From NCBI GenBank assembly GCA_030635045.1, contig DAOVZP010000005.1, positions 1 through 15,988 on the forward strand: a stretch of 15,988 bases of DNA, written 5' to 3'. Both the position numbers and the translations under genes were made by a program. This document shows, piece after piece, positions 8,511 through 15,703 of the stretch. This DNA is from Bacteroidota bacterium. Its GTDB lineage: Bacteria; Bacteroidota; Bacteroidia; Bacteroidales; B18-G4. The number at the start of each line of letters is the position of its first letter. The first letter of the stretch is position 1. The notes below the pieces were generated by a model that worked only from the letters and a program-made list of their open reading frames with translations, ran no database searches and was not told the DNA's origin.

Positions 8511-9404
8511 TTATTTTGACTTTTTAAAGATATAGATTAAACTTGAATAATTTCTTCCTTTAACCGATGCCTGAATATTTGACAAAAGGCCGGTAAGACC
8601 TGCCTGAATTATTTTTGATCTTCCGGATTTATATTTTTCACTTAGCATCGAAATATAAAATGCATCAAGGAGCATTGGCCTGGAAGCGATCATGTCAAAT
8701 CCATGCTCTTTCATTAATGTATTGATGCTTTCCGGGGTAAAATGATAAATATGTCTCGGCACATCAAAAGCTGCCCAATAACTGCCGTAGCGTCTTGCAT
8801 CATATGAATTCATATTTGGAAGTGCTACAAACAATGTGCCATCAGGGCTAAGCTTTTCATGAAATGAGCTGATGCGTTCAGATATGGGATAAATGTGTTC
8901 AAGGACATGCCACATGCTGATTGCACTCAGGCTACCGTCCGGGATATCAGAAAGGCCTGCTTCATCTGTAATGGCAAGAGATTTGTTTTGTGAGGCCTGA
9001 TTGCGGGCTCCTTCATTTGGCTCAATGCCTGAACAATCCCAGCCGGCACGATCCATGGCATTCAGAAAATCACCGGTACCACAGCCATAATCCAGGATAG
9101 TGTTACCGGAAGTATATTTTTTAAGGATACGTTTTTTATAAGAAATCGTATAATTCCTGGAAAGATGAAATAAGCGGTTAGTTATACCTGAAGATGTTTT
9201 AGAATGTGATACGTAGGCATCAGATTCATAATAAGAACTGATTTGATCGATTGGAGGGCGCGGATTGGTAAAACAAAACCCACAGTTTTCGCATACCGCC
9301 AGTTTAAATTTCTCTCCGCTGACAAAATGATCCTTACATTCAAAATGTTCACGAAAGCCTTGGGCCCCGCAAACAATGCACTTTTTAACAGTTTCTGTTA
9401 TCAT
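8511..9404 (-). CDS. Class I SAM-dependent methyltransferase with N-terminal Cys-rich motif
   Basis: The 297-residue protein opens with a zinc-ribbon-like pair of cysteine motifs, CIVC (9-12) and CENCGFCFTNPRP (38-50), then a Rossmann methyltransferase domain with motif I LDYGCGTGDFL (104-114), the SAM-ribose acidic residue E128 in GIEP, and MWHVLEHI further on. Proteins with this arrangement act on small molecules, sugars or lipids; the substrate cannot be deduced. I set the start at the ATG at 9404. An in-frame extension to TTG 9521 exists, but it would begin inside mnmG and translate both parS-like sites, and the conserved protein begins just before the first Cys pair. The ATG directly abuts a parS-like site. 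The gene has its own candidate promoter and is not tightly linked to the kinase downstream. Confidence 0.85.
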   Translation of the reverse strand: MITETVKKCIVCGAQGFREHFECKDHFVSGEKFKLAVCENCGFCFTNPRPPIDQISSYYESDAYVSHSKTSSGITNRLFHLSRNYTISYKKRILKKYTSGNTILDYGCGTGDFLNAMDRAGWDCSGIEPNEGARNQASQNKSLAITDEAGLSDIPDGSLSAISMWHVLEHIYPISERISSFHEKLSPDGTLFVALPNMNSYDARRYGSYWAAFDVPRHIYHFTPESINTLMKEHGFDMIASRPMLLDAFYISMLSEKYKSGRSKIIQAGLTGLLSNIQASVKGRNYSSLIYIFKKSK

Positions 9405-9420
9405 GGTTCCACGTGAAACA
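9405..9420. other. parS-like ParB-binding site 1, abutting the methyltransferase start
   Basis: GGTTCCACGTGAAACA matches the bacterial parS consensus TGTTTCACGTGAAACA at 14 of 16 positions, including the whole CACGTG core and the right half. On the minus strand it reads TGTTTCACGTGGAACC. parS sites are bound by ParB (with ParA) to segregate chromosomes and load SMC, and usually cluster near the origin. The site ends one base before the ATG of the methyltransferase, so it forms the leader of that gene. parB is not in the window. Confidence 0.82.
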
Positions 9421-9427
9421 TAAACGG

Positions 9428-9459
9428 CAAAGATAGGGAAATATAAAGGTTGATAGAAA
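9428..9459 (-). promoter_or_regulatory. Candidate promoter of the methyltransferase gene, between the two parS-like sites
   Basis: On the minus strand TATCTTTG (9435-9428) matches the Bacteroidota -7 element TAnnTTTG exactly, and TTTC (9459-9456) lies 20 bases upstream in the -33 position, where TTTG is expected. It is the only candidate in the window with both elements at correct spacing. The predicted start near 9421 places parS-like site 1 at about +2 to +17. Confidence 0.5.
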
Positions 9460-9476
9460 GGGATTTTTTTGAGTTT

Positions 9477-9492
9477 GGTTCCACGTGAAACA
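9477..9492. other. parS-like ParB-binding site 2, just after mnmG
   Basis: A second exact copy of GGTTCCACGTGAAACA, in the same orientation and 72 bp from the first, begins six bases beyond the mnmG stop codon. Two identical 16-mers in a 94-base spacer cannot reasonably be chance. mnmG (gidA) lies near the origin and parAB in many bacteria, which fits. Confidence 0.82.
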
Positions 9493-9498
9493 ATCCGG

Positions 9499-11376
9499 CT
9501 AACCCCCAAGGTATATAGCAAGGACGGCTATATCGGCAGGAGAAACCCCACTGATCCTGGCTGCCTGCCCGATCGTAACCGGGCGTATTTTACTAAGCTT
9601 CTCACGGGCTTCAAACGAAAGGGATGTTAGTTGCTGATAATCGAAATCGTCCTTGATCACAACATTTTCGAGTTTGCCAAGTTTATTGGCAAGCTCCCTT
9701 TCCTTGTCAATATATCCCTGGTATTTAATGCGAATTTCGGCCTGTTCAATGATCTCAGTGTTCAGGCCTTCCAGGTTTTCGATAAAGGCAGATAAATGCG
9801 GAATGCTTGTTACAAGGTCACTGAAATGGATTTGTGGACGAAGCAATAAGGTGTCAATTTTTACTTTCTGCCTGAGCGGATCTGTTTCTTTTTCAGCCAG
9901 CATGTGATTGACCTCATCCGGAATGACACTTTCTTTTTTGCAAAACCGCATAAGTTGTTCCAATAACTGCTCTTTACGGTTCACCACCTCCAGCCTTGAT
10001 TTATCGGCCAGGCCAATGTCATATCCCATAGGAGTTAAACGCAGGTCGGCATTGTCCTGCCGCAGCAGGATGCGGTATTCTGCACGGGATGTGAACATGC
10101 GGTAGGGTTCATCAACACCCTTGGTGATGAGGTCGTCAATGAGCACACCGATATAAGCATCAGAACGCCTGAGTATGAAATCAGGAAGCTCCCGTAGCTT
10201 GCGATGTGCATTGATGCCAGCAATGAGCCCCTGGGCACCTGCTTCCTCATAGCCGGTAGTGCCGTTTATCTGTCCGGCAAAATATAAGTGCTCTATGAGC
10301 TTGGTCTCCAGCGAATATTTTAACTGTACAGGAGGGAAATAATCATATTCAATTGCATAACCGGGACGAAATACCTTGGCATTTTCAAAACCGGGTATTT
10401 TATGAAGGGCGGCAATCTGCACATCTTCCGGTAATGATGAAGAAAAACCATTTAGATAGTATTCAATCGTTGTCCAGCCTTCCGGTTCAACAAATAACTG
10501 GTGCTGGTCTTTGCCGGCAAAGCGATCGATCTTATCTTCGATAGAGGGGCAATACCTGGGGCCAATACCTTCAATCCTTCCGGTAAACATCGGGGATCGG
10601 GCAAATCCGGTCCGCAGGATATCATGTACGGCCTTATTGGTAAATGCCAGATAACAGCTTCTTTGTTTTAGCAGTGTGCCGGTATCAGTAAAAGAAAACT
10701 TTCCGGGTACTGCATCTCCCGGCTGCTCTTCAAGTTTTGAAAAATCTATGGTGCGGCCATCAATACGGACAGGGGTCCCGGTTTTCATTCGGGAAGCCTC
10801 GAAGCCGAGAGCAACAAGATCTTCGGTAATTCCTTTTGATGCGATCTCGCCCATGCGCCCGCCGGAGATTTTCTTTTCTCCAATATGCATGATGCCATTC
10901 AAAAATGTGCCGTTCGTTAATATCACTGAGCGGCCTTCAATCGTATGGCCAAGGGACGTTTTAACACCCAGGGCCCTGCCAGCTTTTATCATAATGGAGA
11001 CTACCATGTCCTGAAGAAAATCCAGAGAGGGGATTTGTTCAAGCTGATTTCTCCATTCCATAGAAAACAACATTCTGTCGCTTTGTGCCCGTGGGCTCCA
11101 CATTGCAGGGCCCTTGGATTTATTAAGCATCCTGAACTGGATCATGGTCTTGTCCGTGACAATGGCAGACAAGCCCCCTAGGGCATCTATCTCCCTGATG
11201 ATCTGACCCTTAGCTATGCCGCCCATGGCAGGATTACAGGACATCTGCGCCATATTTTCCATGCTCATCGTTACAAGCAAAACAGATGAACCCAAATGGG
11301 CTGCTGCTGCCGCTGCCTCACAGCCGGCATGGCCAGCTCCCACAACGATGACATCGTATTGACCGAACATATTCAT
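9499..11376 (-). CDS. mnmG: tRNA uridine-5-carboxymethylaminomethyl modification enzyme MnmG (GidA)
   Basis: MnmG, an FAD protein, works with the GTPase MnmE to put the cmnm5 group on wobble U34 of several tRNAs, securing accurate reading of purine-ending codons. The protein is 625 residues, normal size. It has the FAD dinucleotide-binding motif VVGAGHAGCEAA (11-22), SCNPAMGGIAKG, the first GidA signature GPRYCPSIEDK with conserved C276, the second signature AGQINGTTGYEEAGAQG (about 367-383), and the C-terminal MnmE-binding helical domain ending VSPADIAVLAIYLGG. The ATG at 11376 lies 20 bases after the ybeY stop; a second ATG two codons in would also serve. It is the last gene of the right-hand cluster and is followed at once by the parS pair. 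MnmE is not in the window. Confidence 0.98.
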   Translation of the reverse strand: MNMFGQYDVIVVGAGHAGCEAAAAAAHLGSSVLLVTMSMENMAQMSCNPAMGGIAKGQIIREIDALGGLSAIVTDKTMIQFRMLNKSKGPAMWSPRAQSDRMLFSMEWRNQLEQIPSLDFLQDMVVSIMIKAGRALGVKTSLGHTIEGRSVILTNGTFLNGIMHIGEKKISGGRMGEIASKGITEDLVALGFEASRMKTGTPVRIDGRTIDFSKLEEQPGDAVPGKFSFTDTGTLLKQRSCYLAFTNKAVHDILRTGFARSPMFTGRIEGIGPRYCPSIEDKIDRFAGKDQHQLFVEPEGWTTIEYYLNGFSSSLPEDVQIAALHKIPGFENAKVFRPGYAIEYDYFPPVQLKYSLETKLIEHLYFAGQINGTTGYEEAGAQGLIAGINAHRKLRELPDFILRRSDAYIGVLIDDLITKGVDEPYRMFTSRAEYRILLRQDNADLRLTPMGYDIGLADKSRLEVVNRKEQLLEQLMRFCKKESVIPDEVNHMLAEKETDPLRQKVKIDTLLLRPQIHFSDLVTSIPHLSAFIENLEGLNTEIIEQAEIRIKYQGYIDKERELANKLGKLENVVIKDDFDYQQLTSLSFEAREKLSKIRPVTIGQAARISGVSPADIAVLAIYLGG

Positions 11377-11396: not shown

Positions 11397-11825
11397 TTAA
11401 AGTGGCAGCAAAGATAGATAATTATCCTCTTTTTTTGTCATCGCCGCTTTCTTTTCAACAGTTTTATCAGAGTAGCCACAAAGGTGCAGGATTCCATGAA
11501 TAATGACCCTATGGTTTTCTTTATCAGGGGTTTGTCCAAACTTTATGGCGTTATCCACAGTACGGTCGTGGCTGATGAAAACATCACCCGACACCTCAGA
11601 ATCTTTTTCGCGATAATCAAATGCAATAACATCGGTGAGGGTATCCCGCTCGAGAAAACGTTGGTTTAGTTCCAGCAGATAAGTGTCATTGCAAAAAATA
11701 ATATTGATTACGCCGGCTTCGAAGCCCTCAGTTTCAATTACCTGAAGAATCCAATCATGGATAACCGGCTCTTGGTCTAAGCGATAATCAATATCTTCGG
11801 AGAAGAACTGGATAAGAGCACTCAT
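11397..11825 (-). CDS. ybeY: Endoribonuclease/rRNA maturation factor YbeY
   Basis: YbeY is a small metal-dependent endoribonuclease needed for 16S rRNA 3'-end maturation and ribosome quality control. At 142 residues it is typical. Seen: conserved R56 in NQRFLERDTLTDVIAFDY, SGDVFIS (79-85), and the metal site HGILHLCGYSD (110-120). H110 and H114 are the first two ligands; the third position, His in the usual HGxLHLxGYDH, is D120. From memory, Bacteroidota YbeY commonly has GYxDK here, so it is probably a phylum variant rather than damage; HxxxHxxGxxD also occurs in snapalysin-type metzincins. The gene sits 24 bases after the GHKL ATPase and 20 before mnmG. Confidence 0.95.
   Translation of the reverse strand: MSALIQFFSEDIDYRLDQEPVIHDWILQVIETEGFEAGVINIIFCNDTYLLELNQRFLERDTLTDVIAFDYREKDSEVSGDVFISHDRTVDNAIKFGQTPDKENHRVIIHGILHLCGYSDKTVEKKAAMTKKEDNYLSLLPL
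11551..11559 (+). other. Perfect DnaA-box 9-mer inside ybeY
   Basis: TTATCCACA matches the strong DnaA-box consensus exactly. It is a single box in coding DNA with no second box or AT-rich unwinding element next to it, so it is not itself an origin. Confidence 0.3.
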
Positions 11826-12343: not shown

Positions 12344-15300
12344 TTAATTACCAAAGTTATAAAAATATTCATTCACTTTGCGTTTATAATAAGGTTTTAA
12401 ATCGGGCGGAACTGTTTTTAGGAGTTCAACTTCTTTCGATAGTATTCTTTTATACTCTAAAAAGTTATCAGGGTTACTATATTCCTGGCTTTTTGCTTCC
12501 CTTGATTCACGACGCTCCTCTTTTTCTCTTTCACGCAGTGCTTTTTCATGCTTCAGGAGACGGGTGTAGATCTCTTCCTGCCTTTTCAAAGTTTCCTCTG
12601 TAAGTCTCTTATTTACAAGGTCCAGCTCGGTTTTCTCCATCTCTTCCATCAGCTTGCTCATGCCGCCATCACCCGTTTCGCCAGCAGCTTTTAATTCATC
12701 CAGATATTCTTGCATCTGACGCCGGATCGCCTCCTGCTCAGCAGCCATCCTGGCAAATTGCTCACTGAGTGACTTCTGTCCCTGTCCATCCATGCTTCCC
12801 TGTTCTCCTTCAGTGCCAGGATTATCCTGACCATTTTTCATTTTCTGCATCTGCTGGTTGAGCTGTTTCTGCATTTCCCCCATACTCTGTGGCATACCGC
12901 CCGGCTTACCCTGTCCGGGATTATTGCAACTGGAGTTCCCCGGCATATCCATGTTTTGCATCTGCTGCATTTGGTCAAGGACTTCTGAAAGAAGCAATGC
13001 GAGATTATTTACTGAGGTCATGACATATTGCTGGGCCATGGAGGCCTCTCCTTTTTTCCTCTCTTGCAGATATGAATTTGCGTCCTCTATGCTTTTATTG
13101 ATCTTGTCAACCTCATTGGTAACAAAAGGCTTGATCATTGCCTGACGTTTGCTTAATGCATAAAGAGAATCTTTAATGATCTCCATATTTTCCTGCAATT
13201 CAAACTGTTGTTTAATGACCTCCTGGTATCTTGGATCTGCAAAACTTGTATTGTTGAGATCAGAGATAAGCTCTTCCTGTTCAAACGATGTGATAAGCAG
13301 GTTCTCAAGGATCTCCCGAAGGACATTAATATCTTCGGCATTTGCCTGCTGCTGCATCTGCATTTGCATATTAAAAAGCATTTCTGCCATCTCCTTCATT
13401 TCCTCACCGGCTTTCTTTTGGGACTGCCCGGCCTTTTTCATTTTGCCATCCTGCAATTGCTCGAGGCTCTTGTCCATTTCCTCCTGAATGCTGTTCTCCA
13501 TATCTTCTGTTTCCAAGAGCTCATGGGATTTTTCCAACTCCTCATTCAGCTGTTCAATTTCTTCCAACTCCTCACGGATTTCTTTGAATGCCTCATTCAG
13601 CTCCTCCTGTTCTGACGACATTTCTTCCTTATCATTGCTTTTATCAGCTGATTCTTCAGAGAGCTTTTGCTGGTCTTCTGCGAGTTTATTTAATTTTTCA
13701 ATGGTTTCACTTAGTTTTTTATCAAATTCAAGTTGTTTGAAAAGCTCTAAAGTTTTATCGAGTTCCATCTCAATATCTTCAGCACTCATTTCCATTTTCT
13801 CGAGCATTTCCTGTACATCCTCCTTGCGGAGTTCGTCCAGCATCTTCTGTAGTTCTTCGAACAAGGCCTTCATTTCATCACTCATCACCTCGTCGAACAA
13901 TTCCTGTAATTGCTGCTGTTTGCGCAGGATGTCCTCGTCCACCTCTTTGTACTGCTGCTCACGAGAGTTTTTTTCGAGGTTTTTTTCTTCCATCAATTCC
14001 AGTCTATCCTGAAGCTGCTGTTGCTGGTTGAGCAGATTTCTGACCTGTTCCTTATCCTGCCAGCTCAGCGTTTCCTTATTGATCAGTTGTTTGTTGAGCT
14101 TTTGAATCTCCAACTGCAACATTTGTGATTCACGGATTATGTCTTCCATCTCATCCTTAATCTCACGGTTTTCCGTTTCGGTTTGTTCGTTGATATCTTC
14201 CAGGCTTGGCGCCCGGAATATCATGTTGTGAGAGCGGCTGCTCTTGTAGCCATTTACCTCATCGTTGTCCCAGACTTCAAAATAATACTGTATTTCATCA
14301 CCGGGTCCTACAGCCAGGCTGCTAAGGTCGAAATGATGAAAAACAAGCTGTTTAGTCTGGCCGGGGGAAAAGAGAACCTCATTCTTTACTACCCTGCCCT
14401 CTATTTTGGTTGAGTCAAAATTATTCAGGAACTCATAATTGAATGTAAGCCCGGTAAACCCGTAATCATCACCGATCTGCCCCCGGAAATATAATCGCTT
14501 ATCATAAACAGAGTCGCGAAATTCCTCAAAGACGGCAGTTGGATAAATATCCGGAATGACAGTAATAGCATAGGCGAGGGTGTCGGGATTCAATAAGTGT
14601 TCATTCGCTGCGGAAATAGAATAAGTAAGGCTGTTAAAAAGCCTCTTTTTGTATTTAAATGCATTGGATCCCTGTGCCTGCAGCCGGACGGTGTCGCCGG
14701 GGAAGCGAAACATTATGGATCGGGTATCACGTGTGATGACCTTCCATTCGGCGTAAGTCCCTTCCGGAACAACAAAGTCGCCGGTGTTTTCAAAAACCTC
14801 ATTTTTTTTACCTGTATATGGCGGGTAGTTCAGGGCCACCTCATAATTGATGATGACAGGCCTGGGTAAAACCCTCAGATAGAATGGCCCGAAATTATAA
14901 TCTTCGGCGATGATGTTAAATTGCATATCCTGCTGCAATTTATTCAGGGTGTAACTAAAGAGCCCGGACGACTCCTTGCGAAAGGGAAGGATGTTGGTAT
15001 TGGAGGATAAATACATCCCGGCAGGGAGTTCTTCCCCATTTACCTGAACCATCAGGGTAAAGTCATCGTGCTGCATTACTTCCAGCTTGTGGTTGAGGAT
15101 ATGTACACTGAAGGGCATGGGCCGCTCAAACTGCAAACGGTGGTTGATTAGTCTTTGCGAAGGTTCCGTTATTATAGACGGAGAAGCAAAAAGCAATATT
15201 ATTATGACCAGAACAGGGGGGATGGCATATTTCAGGTACTTCCTGTTTTTCCTGAGATCAATTGCTTTCACGAACGGAACAGGATGCAGTGTTTTGGTTT

Positions 15301-15703
15301 TCTGTTCTATCCCCGCCTCTAATAATTCCAGGGTTCCGTTCTCCTCACTGAGCTTTTTTAACTGTATGGTATTGATCAGCTTGTCCTTCACCTCCGGAAA
15401 ATATGCCCCGATAATTGAGGCCGCTTCCTCCTCTTTCATTGTTTTACCAATCCTGAAAAGCTTCATCAGCGGGATAATAATAAGCCTTATAAGAATGAAC
15501 AGGTTTAAAGCCAGGTAAGTATAGAACAGCACGGTGCGGACCCAGGGGCTGCTCCAGGTGTAATATTCGAAGGCATTGACAAGAAGGAAAAACAATGTAA
15601 ATACAGCAATGAACCAGATTCCTCCGCGAAATACCTGGTTCAGGTAATACTTGCGAATGAAGCGGTGTAATTTACCGAGCAGTATGTTATAATTATCCTG
15701 CAT
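12344..15703 (-). CDS. DUF4175-like membrane protein with long coiled-coil region
   Basis: This 1119-residue protein resembles the DUF4175 family; its function is unknown. Seen in order: three membrane segments (about 27-45, 57-80, 158-174); a probably extracytoplasmic beta-rich part (about 180-495, with repeated short strands such as YPPYTGKK and YYFEVWDNDE that suggest Ig-like folds); a long Glu/Lys/Gln-rich coiled coil (about 505-850) including a Met/Gln block LFNMQMQMQQQAN near 785; a Gly/Asn/Gln/Met-rich low-complexity linker (about 907-977); and a second coiled coil to the end. The coil could make a rod spanning the periplasm or a scaffold. It is the first gene of the rsbW-like/ybeY/mnmG cluster. 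The ATG at 15703 follows GCAACAAA with no Shine-Dalgarno. Long plus-strand frames opposite it are shadows of its skewed composition. Confidence 0.8.
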   Translation of the reverse strand: MQDNYNILLGKLHRFIRKYYLNQVFRGGIWFIAVFTLFFLLVNAFEYYTWSSPWVRTVLFYTYLALNLFILIRLIIIPLMKLFRIGKTMKEEEAASIIGAYFPEVKDKLINTIQLKKLSEENGTLELLEAGIEQKTKTLHPVPFVKAIDLRKNRKYLKYAIPPVLVIIILLFASPSIITEPSQRLINHRLQFERPMPFSVHILNHKLEVMQHDDFTLMVQVNGEELPAGMYLSSNTNILPFRKESSGLFSYTLNKLQQDMQFNIIAEDYNFGPFYLRVLPRPVIINYEVALNYPPYTGKKNEVFENTGDFVVPEGTYAEWKVITRDTRSIMFRFPGDTVRLQAQGSNAFKYKKRLFNSLTYSISAANEHLLNPDTLAYAITVIPDIYPTAVFEEFRDSVYDKRLYFRGQIGDDYGFTGLTFNYEFLNNFDSTKIEGRVVKNEVLFSPGQTKQLVFHHFDLSSLAVGPGDEIQYYFEVWDNDEVNGYKSSRSHNMIFRAPSLEDINEQTETENREIKDEMEDIIRESQMLQLEIQKLNKQLINKETLSWQDKEQVRNLLNQQQQLQDRLELMEEKNLEKNSREQQYKEVDEDILRKQQQLQELFDEVMSDEMKALFEELQKMLDELRKEDVQEMLEKMEMSAEDIEMELDKTLELFKQLEFDKKLSETIEKLNKLAEDQQKLSEESADKSNDKEEMSSEQEELNEAFKEIREELEEIEQLNEELEKSHELLETEDMENSIQEEMDKSLEQLQDGKMKKAGQSQKKAGEEMKEMAEMLFNMQMQMQQQANAEDINVLREILENLLITSFEQEELISDLNNTSFADPRYQEVIKQQFELQENMEIIKDSLYALSKRQAMIKPFVTNEVDKINKSIEDANSYLQERKKGEASMAQQYVMTSVNNLALLLSEVLDQMQQMQNMDMPGNSSCNNPGQGKPGGMPQSMGEMQKQLNQQMQKMKNGQDNPGTEGEQGSMDGQGQKSLSEQFARMAAEQEAIRRQMQEYLDELKAAGETGDGGMSKLMEEMEKTELDLVNKRLTEETLKRQEEIYTRLLKHEKALREREKEERRESREAKSQEYSNPDNFLEYKRILSKEVELLKTVPPDLKPYYKRKVNEYFYNFGN

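Follow-up and report, generated by a model that had tools for sequence, protein, structure and literature searches.

The mnmG spacer and its surroundings

The window, as the whole stretch of 15,988 nucleotides that was analysed is called here, carries mnmG (gidA) next to a gene for a SAM-dependent methyltransferase (Table 1), and all genes read in it lie on the minus strand. The methyltransferase gene was taken to start at the ATG at 9404 rather than at a TTG at 9521, because its same-genus relatives begin at the matching position. The spacer between the two genes is limited by the mnmG stop codon (9499-9501) and by this ATG (CAT at 9402-9404). Further genes of the window are dut, the gene for penicillin-binding protein 2, rodA, which is cut off at the contig edge, a weakly matched polysaccharide-type transporter gene, and the genes of an ATP-binding protein and of a large sensor kinase, each matched only under the curated cut-offs. 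By its gene content the contig is chromosomal. Positions 12344-15703 encode a protein of 1119 amino acids with a long glutamate- and glutamine-rich stretch; it found no match in NCBIfam, and proteins with a similar end occur in the same neighbourhood in relatives.

Table 1. Features of the mnmG region in the window
Feature	Position	Strand or sequence	Remarks
mnmG (gidA)	9499..11376	-	TIGR00136, 806.8 bits; parS tied to its borders in most relatives checked
SAM-dependent methyltransferase	8511..9404	-	Methyltransf_23
ybeY	11397..11825	-	TIGR00043; neighbour upstream of mnmG
Spacer mnmG/methyltransferase	9405..9498	94 bases	one probable parS near either end; putative ParB loading zone
Probable parS copy 1	9405..9420	GGTTCCACGTGAAACA on +, TGTTTCACGTGGAACC on -	immediately abuts the methyltransferase ATG
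Probable parS copy 2	9477..9492	sequence as copy 1	6 bp beyond the mnmG stop codon

The spacer holds two identical 16-mers, GGTTCCACGTGAAACA, both on the plus strand and 72 bp apart from start to start, exactly as the original prediction had described them. No third match with up to three mismatches is present in the window. When the window was shuffled, matches at this stringency averaged 0.10, and at least two were obtained in 1 of 200 shuffles. Each copy departs at two positions from the classical 16-bp palindrome TGTTTCACGTGAAACA, for which at least two matches with up to three mismatches were obtained in none of 200 shuffles, and at one position from the pattern TGTTYCACGTGRAACA. With the half-sites numbered as in the part of PMC7383237 consulted, and with the register of the 16-mer assigned in this analysis, both half-sites have G at position 1 and A at position 6.

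Rarity of the sites and the ParA and ParB of the genome

The genome assembly comprises 392 contigs with 2,111,639 bases. At up to one mismatch, TGTTYCACGTGRAACA occurs in it at two sites in total, both inside this one spacer, and about 0.09 sites are expected by chance with equal base frequencies. At two mismatches there are three further places, compared with one for a reversed control pattern at the same stringency. The absence of further sites is provisional, because the genome is 75% complete and divided among so many contigs. Copies scattered over the genome, or a genome lacking parB, had been named as observations that would speak against a centromere; the sites at up to one mismatch share a single spacer, and parA and parB are both present.

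The ParB gene adjoins the gene of a ParA-type ATPase on another contig (C93), where no parS-like site with up to two mismatches was found in the 3.5 kb around parB. The protein has the domains ParB_N, HTH_ParB and ParB_C, matches TIGR00180 at 174.4 bits, and finds its best PDB matches in ParB and Noc chains. It contains the motifs GERR and ENxxR, which are presumably its CTP-binding motifs. In the alignment with Noc (7ng0), Arg and Gly stand opposite the residues that, judged by their spacing, are taken to be Noc Q158 and R186, and the two permissive positions are occupied by Tyr and Lys. The RXXG pair is described in the part of PMC7383237 consulted as parS-specific and conserved in all extant ParB. 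The specificity residues of the genome's ParB are accordingly predicted from the alignment to be of the parS type and not of the Noc type.

The same part of PMC7383237 describes the NBS, a related palindrome that is bound by the ParB paralogue Noc and has adenine at position 1 and cytosine at position 6 of its half-site. In contrast, the sites of the window keep the guanine 1 and adenine 6 of parS, and the switching positions of the ParB are occupied by Arg and Gly. An identity of the sites with NBS was rejected, because their half-sites are G1/A6 rather than A1/C6.

The sites in the genus, family and order

Exact TGTTYCACGTGRAACV is found in six of nine genomes of the family, this genome included. 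One genome has its site between mnmG and the methyltransferase gene, another upstream of mnmG, and three have a pair of sites that flank mnmG at a distance of 1.90 kb from each other, which is roughly the length of the gene. Within the genus, two genomes have a single site each (up to one mismatch) ahead of the methyltransferase gene, and a third, 75% complete, has no site at up to one mismatch. A same-genus locus, L079, which probably belongs to one of these two genomes (G002), has two sites at a distance of 198 bp, GGTTCCACGTGAAACT following mnmG and AGTTTCACGTGAAACA preceding the methyltransferase gene. Since the pair is present there at both positions, it is older than this species, and since the distance is 198 bp in L079 and 72 bp in the window, the spacing has not been held. 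The spacer between the two sites of this locus (L079:5534-5747) is expanded by a short ATCCAGT-like tandem repeat.

Throughout the order, exact TGTTYCACGTGRAACV is present in 145 of 198 genomes, again counting this one. The distances from mnmG were taken from a cross-table covering 62 of the 145 genomes with listed sites, 54 of them with a listed mnmG; the 8 genomes without one were excluded before counting. Among those listed, mnmG has a site no more than 1 kb away in 53 of 54 genomes, with 71 of 76 sites being that close. The median distance between a downstream site and the end of the mnmG domain match is 13 bases. The gap between ybeY and mnmG, too, often holds a parS in relatives. A second look at up to one mismatch was taken at 26 genomes, namely the three of the same genus and 23 chosen from the 53 that lack an exact site, and yielded a site in 16. 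By hand comparison, 11 of these 16 have it within 1 kb of mnmG; in one same-genus genome it is beside the methyltransferase gene, in two (G190 and G128) it is elsewhere, and two (G087 and G016) have no listed mnmG. The site of G079 also lies away from mnmG. In G099, a genome of 1.2 Mb that is 99% complete, no ParB match was obtained, and exact TGTTYCACGTGRAACV is absent.

Variants with A, C or G for the outer T are frequent at mnmG in relatives; five genomes (G015, G038, G101, G123 and G202) showed no sites other than these at up to one mismatch. Two related genomes (G192 and G089; loci L184 and L185 on G192:C9 and G089:C7) lack an exact site; each has TGTTTCACATGAAACA, a variant of parS with a changed central base, in three copies located at mnmG or no more than 2 kb away from it.

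The tie to mnmG across the phylum

A collection of named mnmG loci, the best 80 of 588, consists of 78 loci from Bacteroidota, one from Limnohabitans and one from a source named only as bacterium, and overlaps in part with the genomes of the order sample. A site with up to one mismatch lies within 250 bp of an mnmG border in 62 of the 80 loci: on both sides in 38, only upstream in 20 and only downstream in 4. The other 18 have no such site within 250 bp of mnmG. On the same 80 loci, 20 shuffled palindromes and the reversed pattern jointly gave 2 matches, compared with 156 for parS.

From the phylum, 118 evenly sampled genomes were scanned with TGTTYCACGTGRAACA, a stricter pattern that the window's own sites do not match exactly, and exact matches were obtained in 86. 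Of the 44 genomes listed, 18 are inside the class and 26 outside it; a site no more than 1 kb from mnmG was seen in 15 of the former, the other 3 having theirs elsewhere, and in all of the latter, 25 of which belong to one family, f135. Ten whole named genomes were taken from the 80 for their long contigs, and distances in them were compared by hand: of their 30 sites, 25 are no more than about 1.1 kb from mnmG, 29 are within 5.6 kb of it, and one is elsewhere. Three of these genomes (G208:C1:643759, G210:C1:462734 and G212:C24:470786, corresponding to loci L155, L122 and L127) have in common a TCTTCCACGTGAAACA site on the downstream side of mnmG, at a distance of about 5.1-5.6 kb.

parS is thus tied to the borders of mnmG, with exceptions, in most of the relatives checked, and the tie extends over most Bacteroidota checked and at least two families outside the class. 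The parS is often less than 20 bp from mnmG and often on both sides of it, with parAB and usually dnaA elsewhere.

Spacing of paired sites

The original prediction placed both ParB dimers on nearly the same face of the DNA. The distance of 72 bp corresponds to 6.86 turns of 10.5 bp. A complete scripted count of successive pairs up to 200 bp apart over the 80 named loci gave 40 pairs in 20 loci, with spacings from 37 to 172 bp; 22 of the 40 fall at 35-49 bp, a cluster that does not include the 72 bp of the window. No helical phasing was detected in the 40 spacings (Rayleigh p about 0.64 for 10.5 bp, 0.61 for 10.0 bp and 0.12 for 11.0 bp), and with spacings so variable the idea of a common face finds no support. 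An earlier hand-picked list of 47 spacings, in which the pairs of loci L131 and L142 were missing, had given p of about 0.065, 0.12 and 0.002 for 10.5, 10.0 and 11.0 bp, respectively, and was set aside.

Position relative to the replication origin

Two relatives of the same order whose genomes are in one contig, G140 and G202, have a GC-skew switch within about 50 kb of mnmG and parS. In G140 the skew was taken at fourfold sites in 40 stretches (795 kb of 4.30 Mb). It is negative in six stretches from 1.525 to 1.645 Mb, positive in six from 1.645 to 1.760 Mb and wavering thereafter, which puts the switch between 1.625-1.645 and 1.645-1.663 Mb; parS is at 1.673 Mb, parB at 1.728 Mb and dnaA at 0.467 Mb. 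In G202 (20 stretches, 400 kb) the switch falls between 90-110 and 110-130 kb, with parS at 122.5 kb, parB at 1.020 Mb and dnaA at 1.944 Mb. The genes underlying both profiles were called by a crude longest-ORF rule, and the skew is weak: the G140 stretches past the switch are partly of opposite sign, both switches are noisy at 5-kb steps, and genes on the plus and minus strands of G202 often differ in sign, the summed value carrying the result.

The gene dnaA, which the original prediction had proposed to locate, is an unsafe landmark of the origin here, as it lies 1.2 and 1.8 Mb from parS in these two relatives. Among ten other genomes it is on the mnmG contig in two, about 370 kb from mnmG in G099 and 9 kb from it in G095. 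G095 has an exact TGTTYCACGTGRAACV site somewhere in its genome, yet no parS-like site with up to two mismatches occurs in the 20 kb around its mnmG (L215, G095:C2:263001-283000). Two exact DnaA boxes and one near-match stand beside dnaA at this locus.

At the skew switch of G140, an AT-rich intergenic gap (L166:7461-8083, that is G140:C1:1652461-1653083) contains a cluster of DnaA-box-like sites of the TTATCAACA type; parS is about 20 kb away and dnaA 1.18 Mb. This gap is a candidate oriC. No comparable cluster was found near the G202 switch in the stretches scanned.

An origin inside the window itself was considered and rejected. The raw skew is mostly positive to the left of the sites and about zero or negative to the right, which is the sense of a cumulative maximum and not of a minimum, and the fourfold-site skew is equal on both sides (+0.25 and +0.24, with all genes on one strand). 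The DnaA-box-like sites of the window, four at up to one mismatch of which two are exact, are unclustered. By analogy with the two one-contig relatives, the region of this genome that contains the window is probably near the replication origin.

Published work bears on this placement. The part of PMC10197239 consulted reports that parS clusters together with GC skew placed the origins of twelve OMM12 gut species, including two Bacteroidetes, that in Bacteroidetes the origin is marked by parS clusters, and that the origin and dnaA do not always coincide. The origin was defined there as the skew shift nearest the parS cluster, so that the agreement of the two is partly one of definition, with read coverage as support. 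The parS clusters of its two Bacteroidetes, Bacteroides caecimuris and Muribaculum intestinale, resemble the present case in that they belong to the same phylum and most sites are clustered; the likeness was drawn without a comparison of coordinates, and mnmG is not mentioned in the part consulted. In enterobacteria, according to the part of PMC10225481 consulted, the origin lies between gidA and mioC.

Identity and proposed function of the sites

The two 16-mers are best explained as chromosomal parS sites of a Bacteroidales bacterium whose cognate ParB and ParA are encoded elsewhere in the genome, a reading to which a probability of about 0.93 is given. The identification as parS, already proposed from the sequence of the window, is supported by the rarity of the sites, by the presence of parA and parB, and by the tie to mnmG in most relatives. 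Like the parS of chromosomal ParABS systems, the sites are 16-bp palindromes around CACGTG, present in few, clustered copies in a genome with ParA and ParB, and in two relatives such sites are near a skew switch. They differ from the classical form in one half-site, which is GGTTCCAC instead of TGTTTCAC, and from classical systems in that parA and parB are on a separate contig; in the two relatives with a single contig, 55 kb and 0.9 Mb separate parB from parS, and dnaA is at the distances given above.

Copy 1 ends at the base that directly precedes the methyltransferase ATG, and in L079 a site stands 6 bases ahead of the start of the same gene, as might be expected if the sites were operators of another CACGTG-binding regulator controlling the methyltransferase gene. 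Copy 2, however, is at the opposite end of the spacer, the sites in relatives go with mnmG on one or both of its sides, and among the 62 named loci with a site close to mnmG there are 20 in which it lies upstream of mnmG only, which makes control of the methyltransferase gene a very unlikely role. That both copies deviate from the classical 16-mer at two positions in an assembly only three-quarters complete would also agree with decayed, unbound parS, the working parS being in the missing quarter of the genome. Such decay is highly improbable, given that the copies are identical and retain guanine 1 and adenine 6, the positions distinguishing parS from NBS in the part of PMC7383237 consulted, and that outer-base variants are common at mnmG in relatives and, in the five genomes named above, stand as sole sites. 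ParABS systems are common on plasmids, and the sites might in principle belong to a plasmid or mobile element with its own parS; this is contradicted by the gene content of the contig, with its housekeeping genes mnmG, ybeY, dut, penicillin-binding protein 2 and rodA, and the same neighbour genes recur in relatives, which leaves such an origin with a negligible probability.

ParB works as a CTP-dependent clamp. If the two 16-mers are chromosomal parS sites, the genome's own ParB would bind both through its HTH domain, close at parS into the clamp and slide onto the adjoining DNA, and ParA would move the parS region after replication. Binding, clamp loading, sliding and ParA-driven movement are expected at the sites of the window by analogy. 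Two sites would raise ParB loading, and a sliding clamp would need no fixed helical phase. The two-base departure from the classical 16-mer may lower the affinity. A review (PMC7333895, consulted in part) likewise describes ParB as loading at parS, spreading to neighbouring DNA and being moved by a ParA gradient.

Significance

A chromosomal parS pair is a known kind of element, and the window taken alone is ordinary. The tie of parS to mnmG in Bacteroidota was not found named in the literature searched, at the level of titles and abstracts and without Livny et al. (2007), which reportedly treats the parS of chromosomal ParABS systems. Within that literature, an association with mnmG across much of a phylum, with parAB and usually dnaA elsewhere, thus appears unreported.

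One tentative reading is that mnmG and its parS pair are the fixed core of an ancestral oriC-mnmG-parAB cluster held by selection, the flanks of mnmG being the centromere of the phylum. It is made less probable, and on balance doubtful, by the restriction of nearly all the outside-class genomes to one family and by G095, which has dnaA but no parS beside mnmG. If it were true, the flanks of mnmG could serve to locate the origin of draft genomes for which dnaA is misleading.

No homologue of the known bacterial condensins is reported for the two Bacteroidetes in the part of PMC10197239 consulted, and a well-defined ParB loading site would therefore allow a test of what, if anything, ParB recruits in this phylum. 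Should the tie prove general, parS at mnmG would be a sequence landmark by which draft contigs of Bacteroidota could be placed near the origin.
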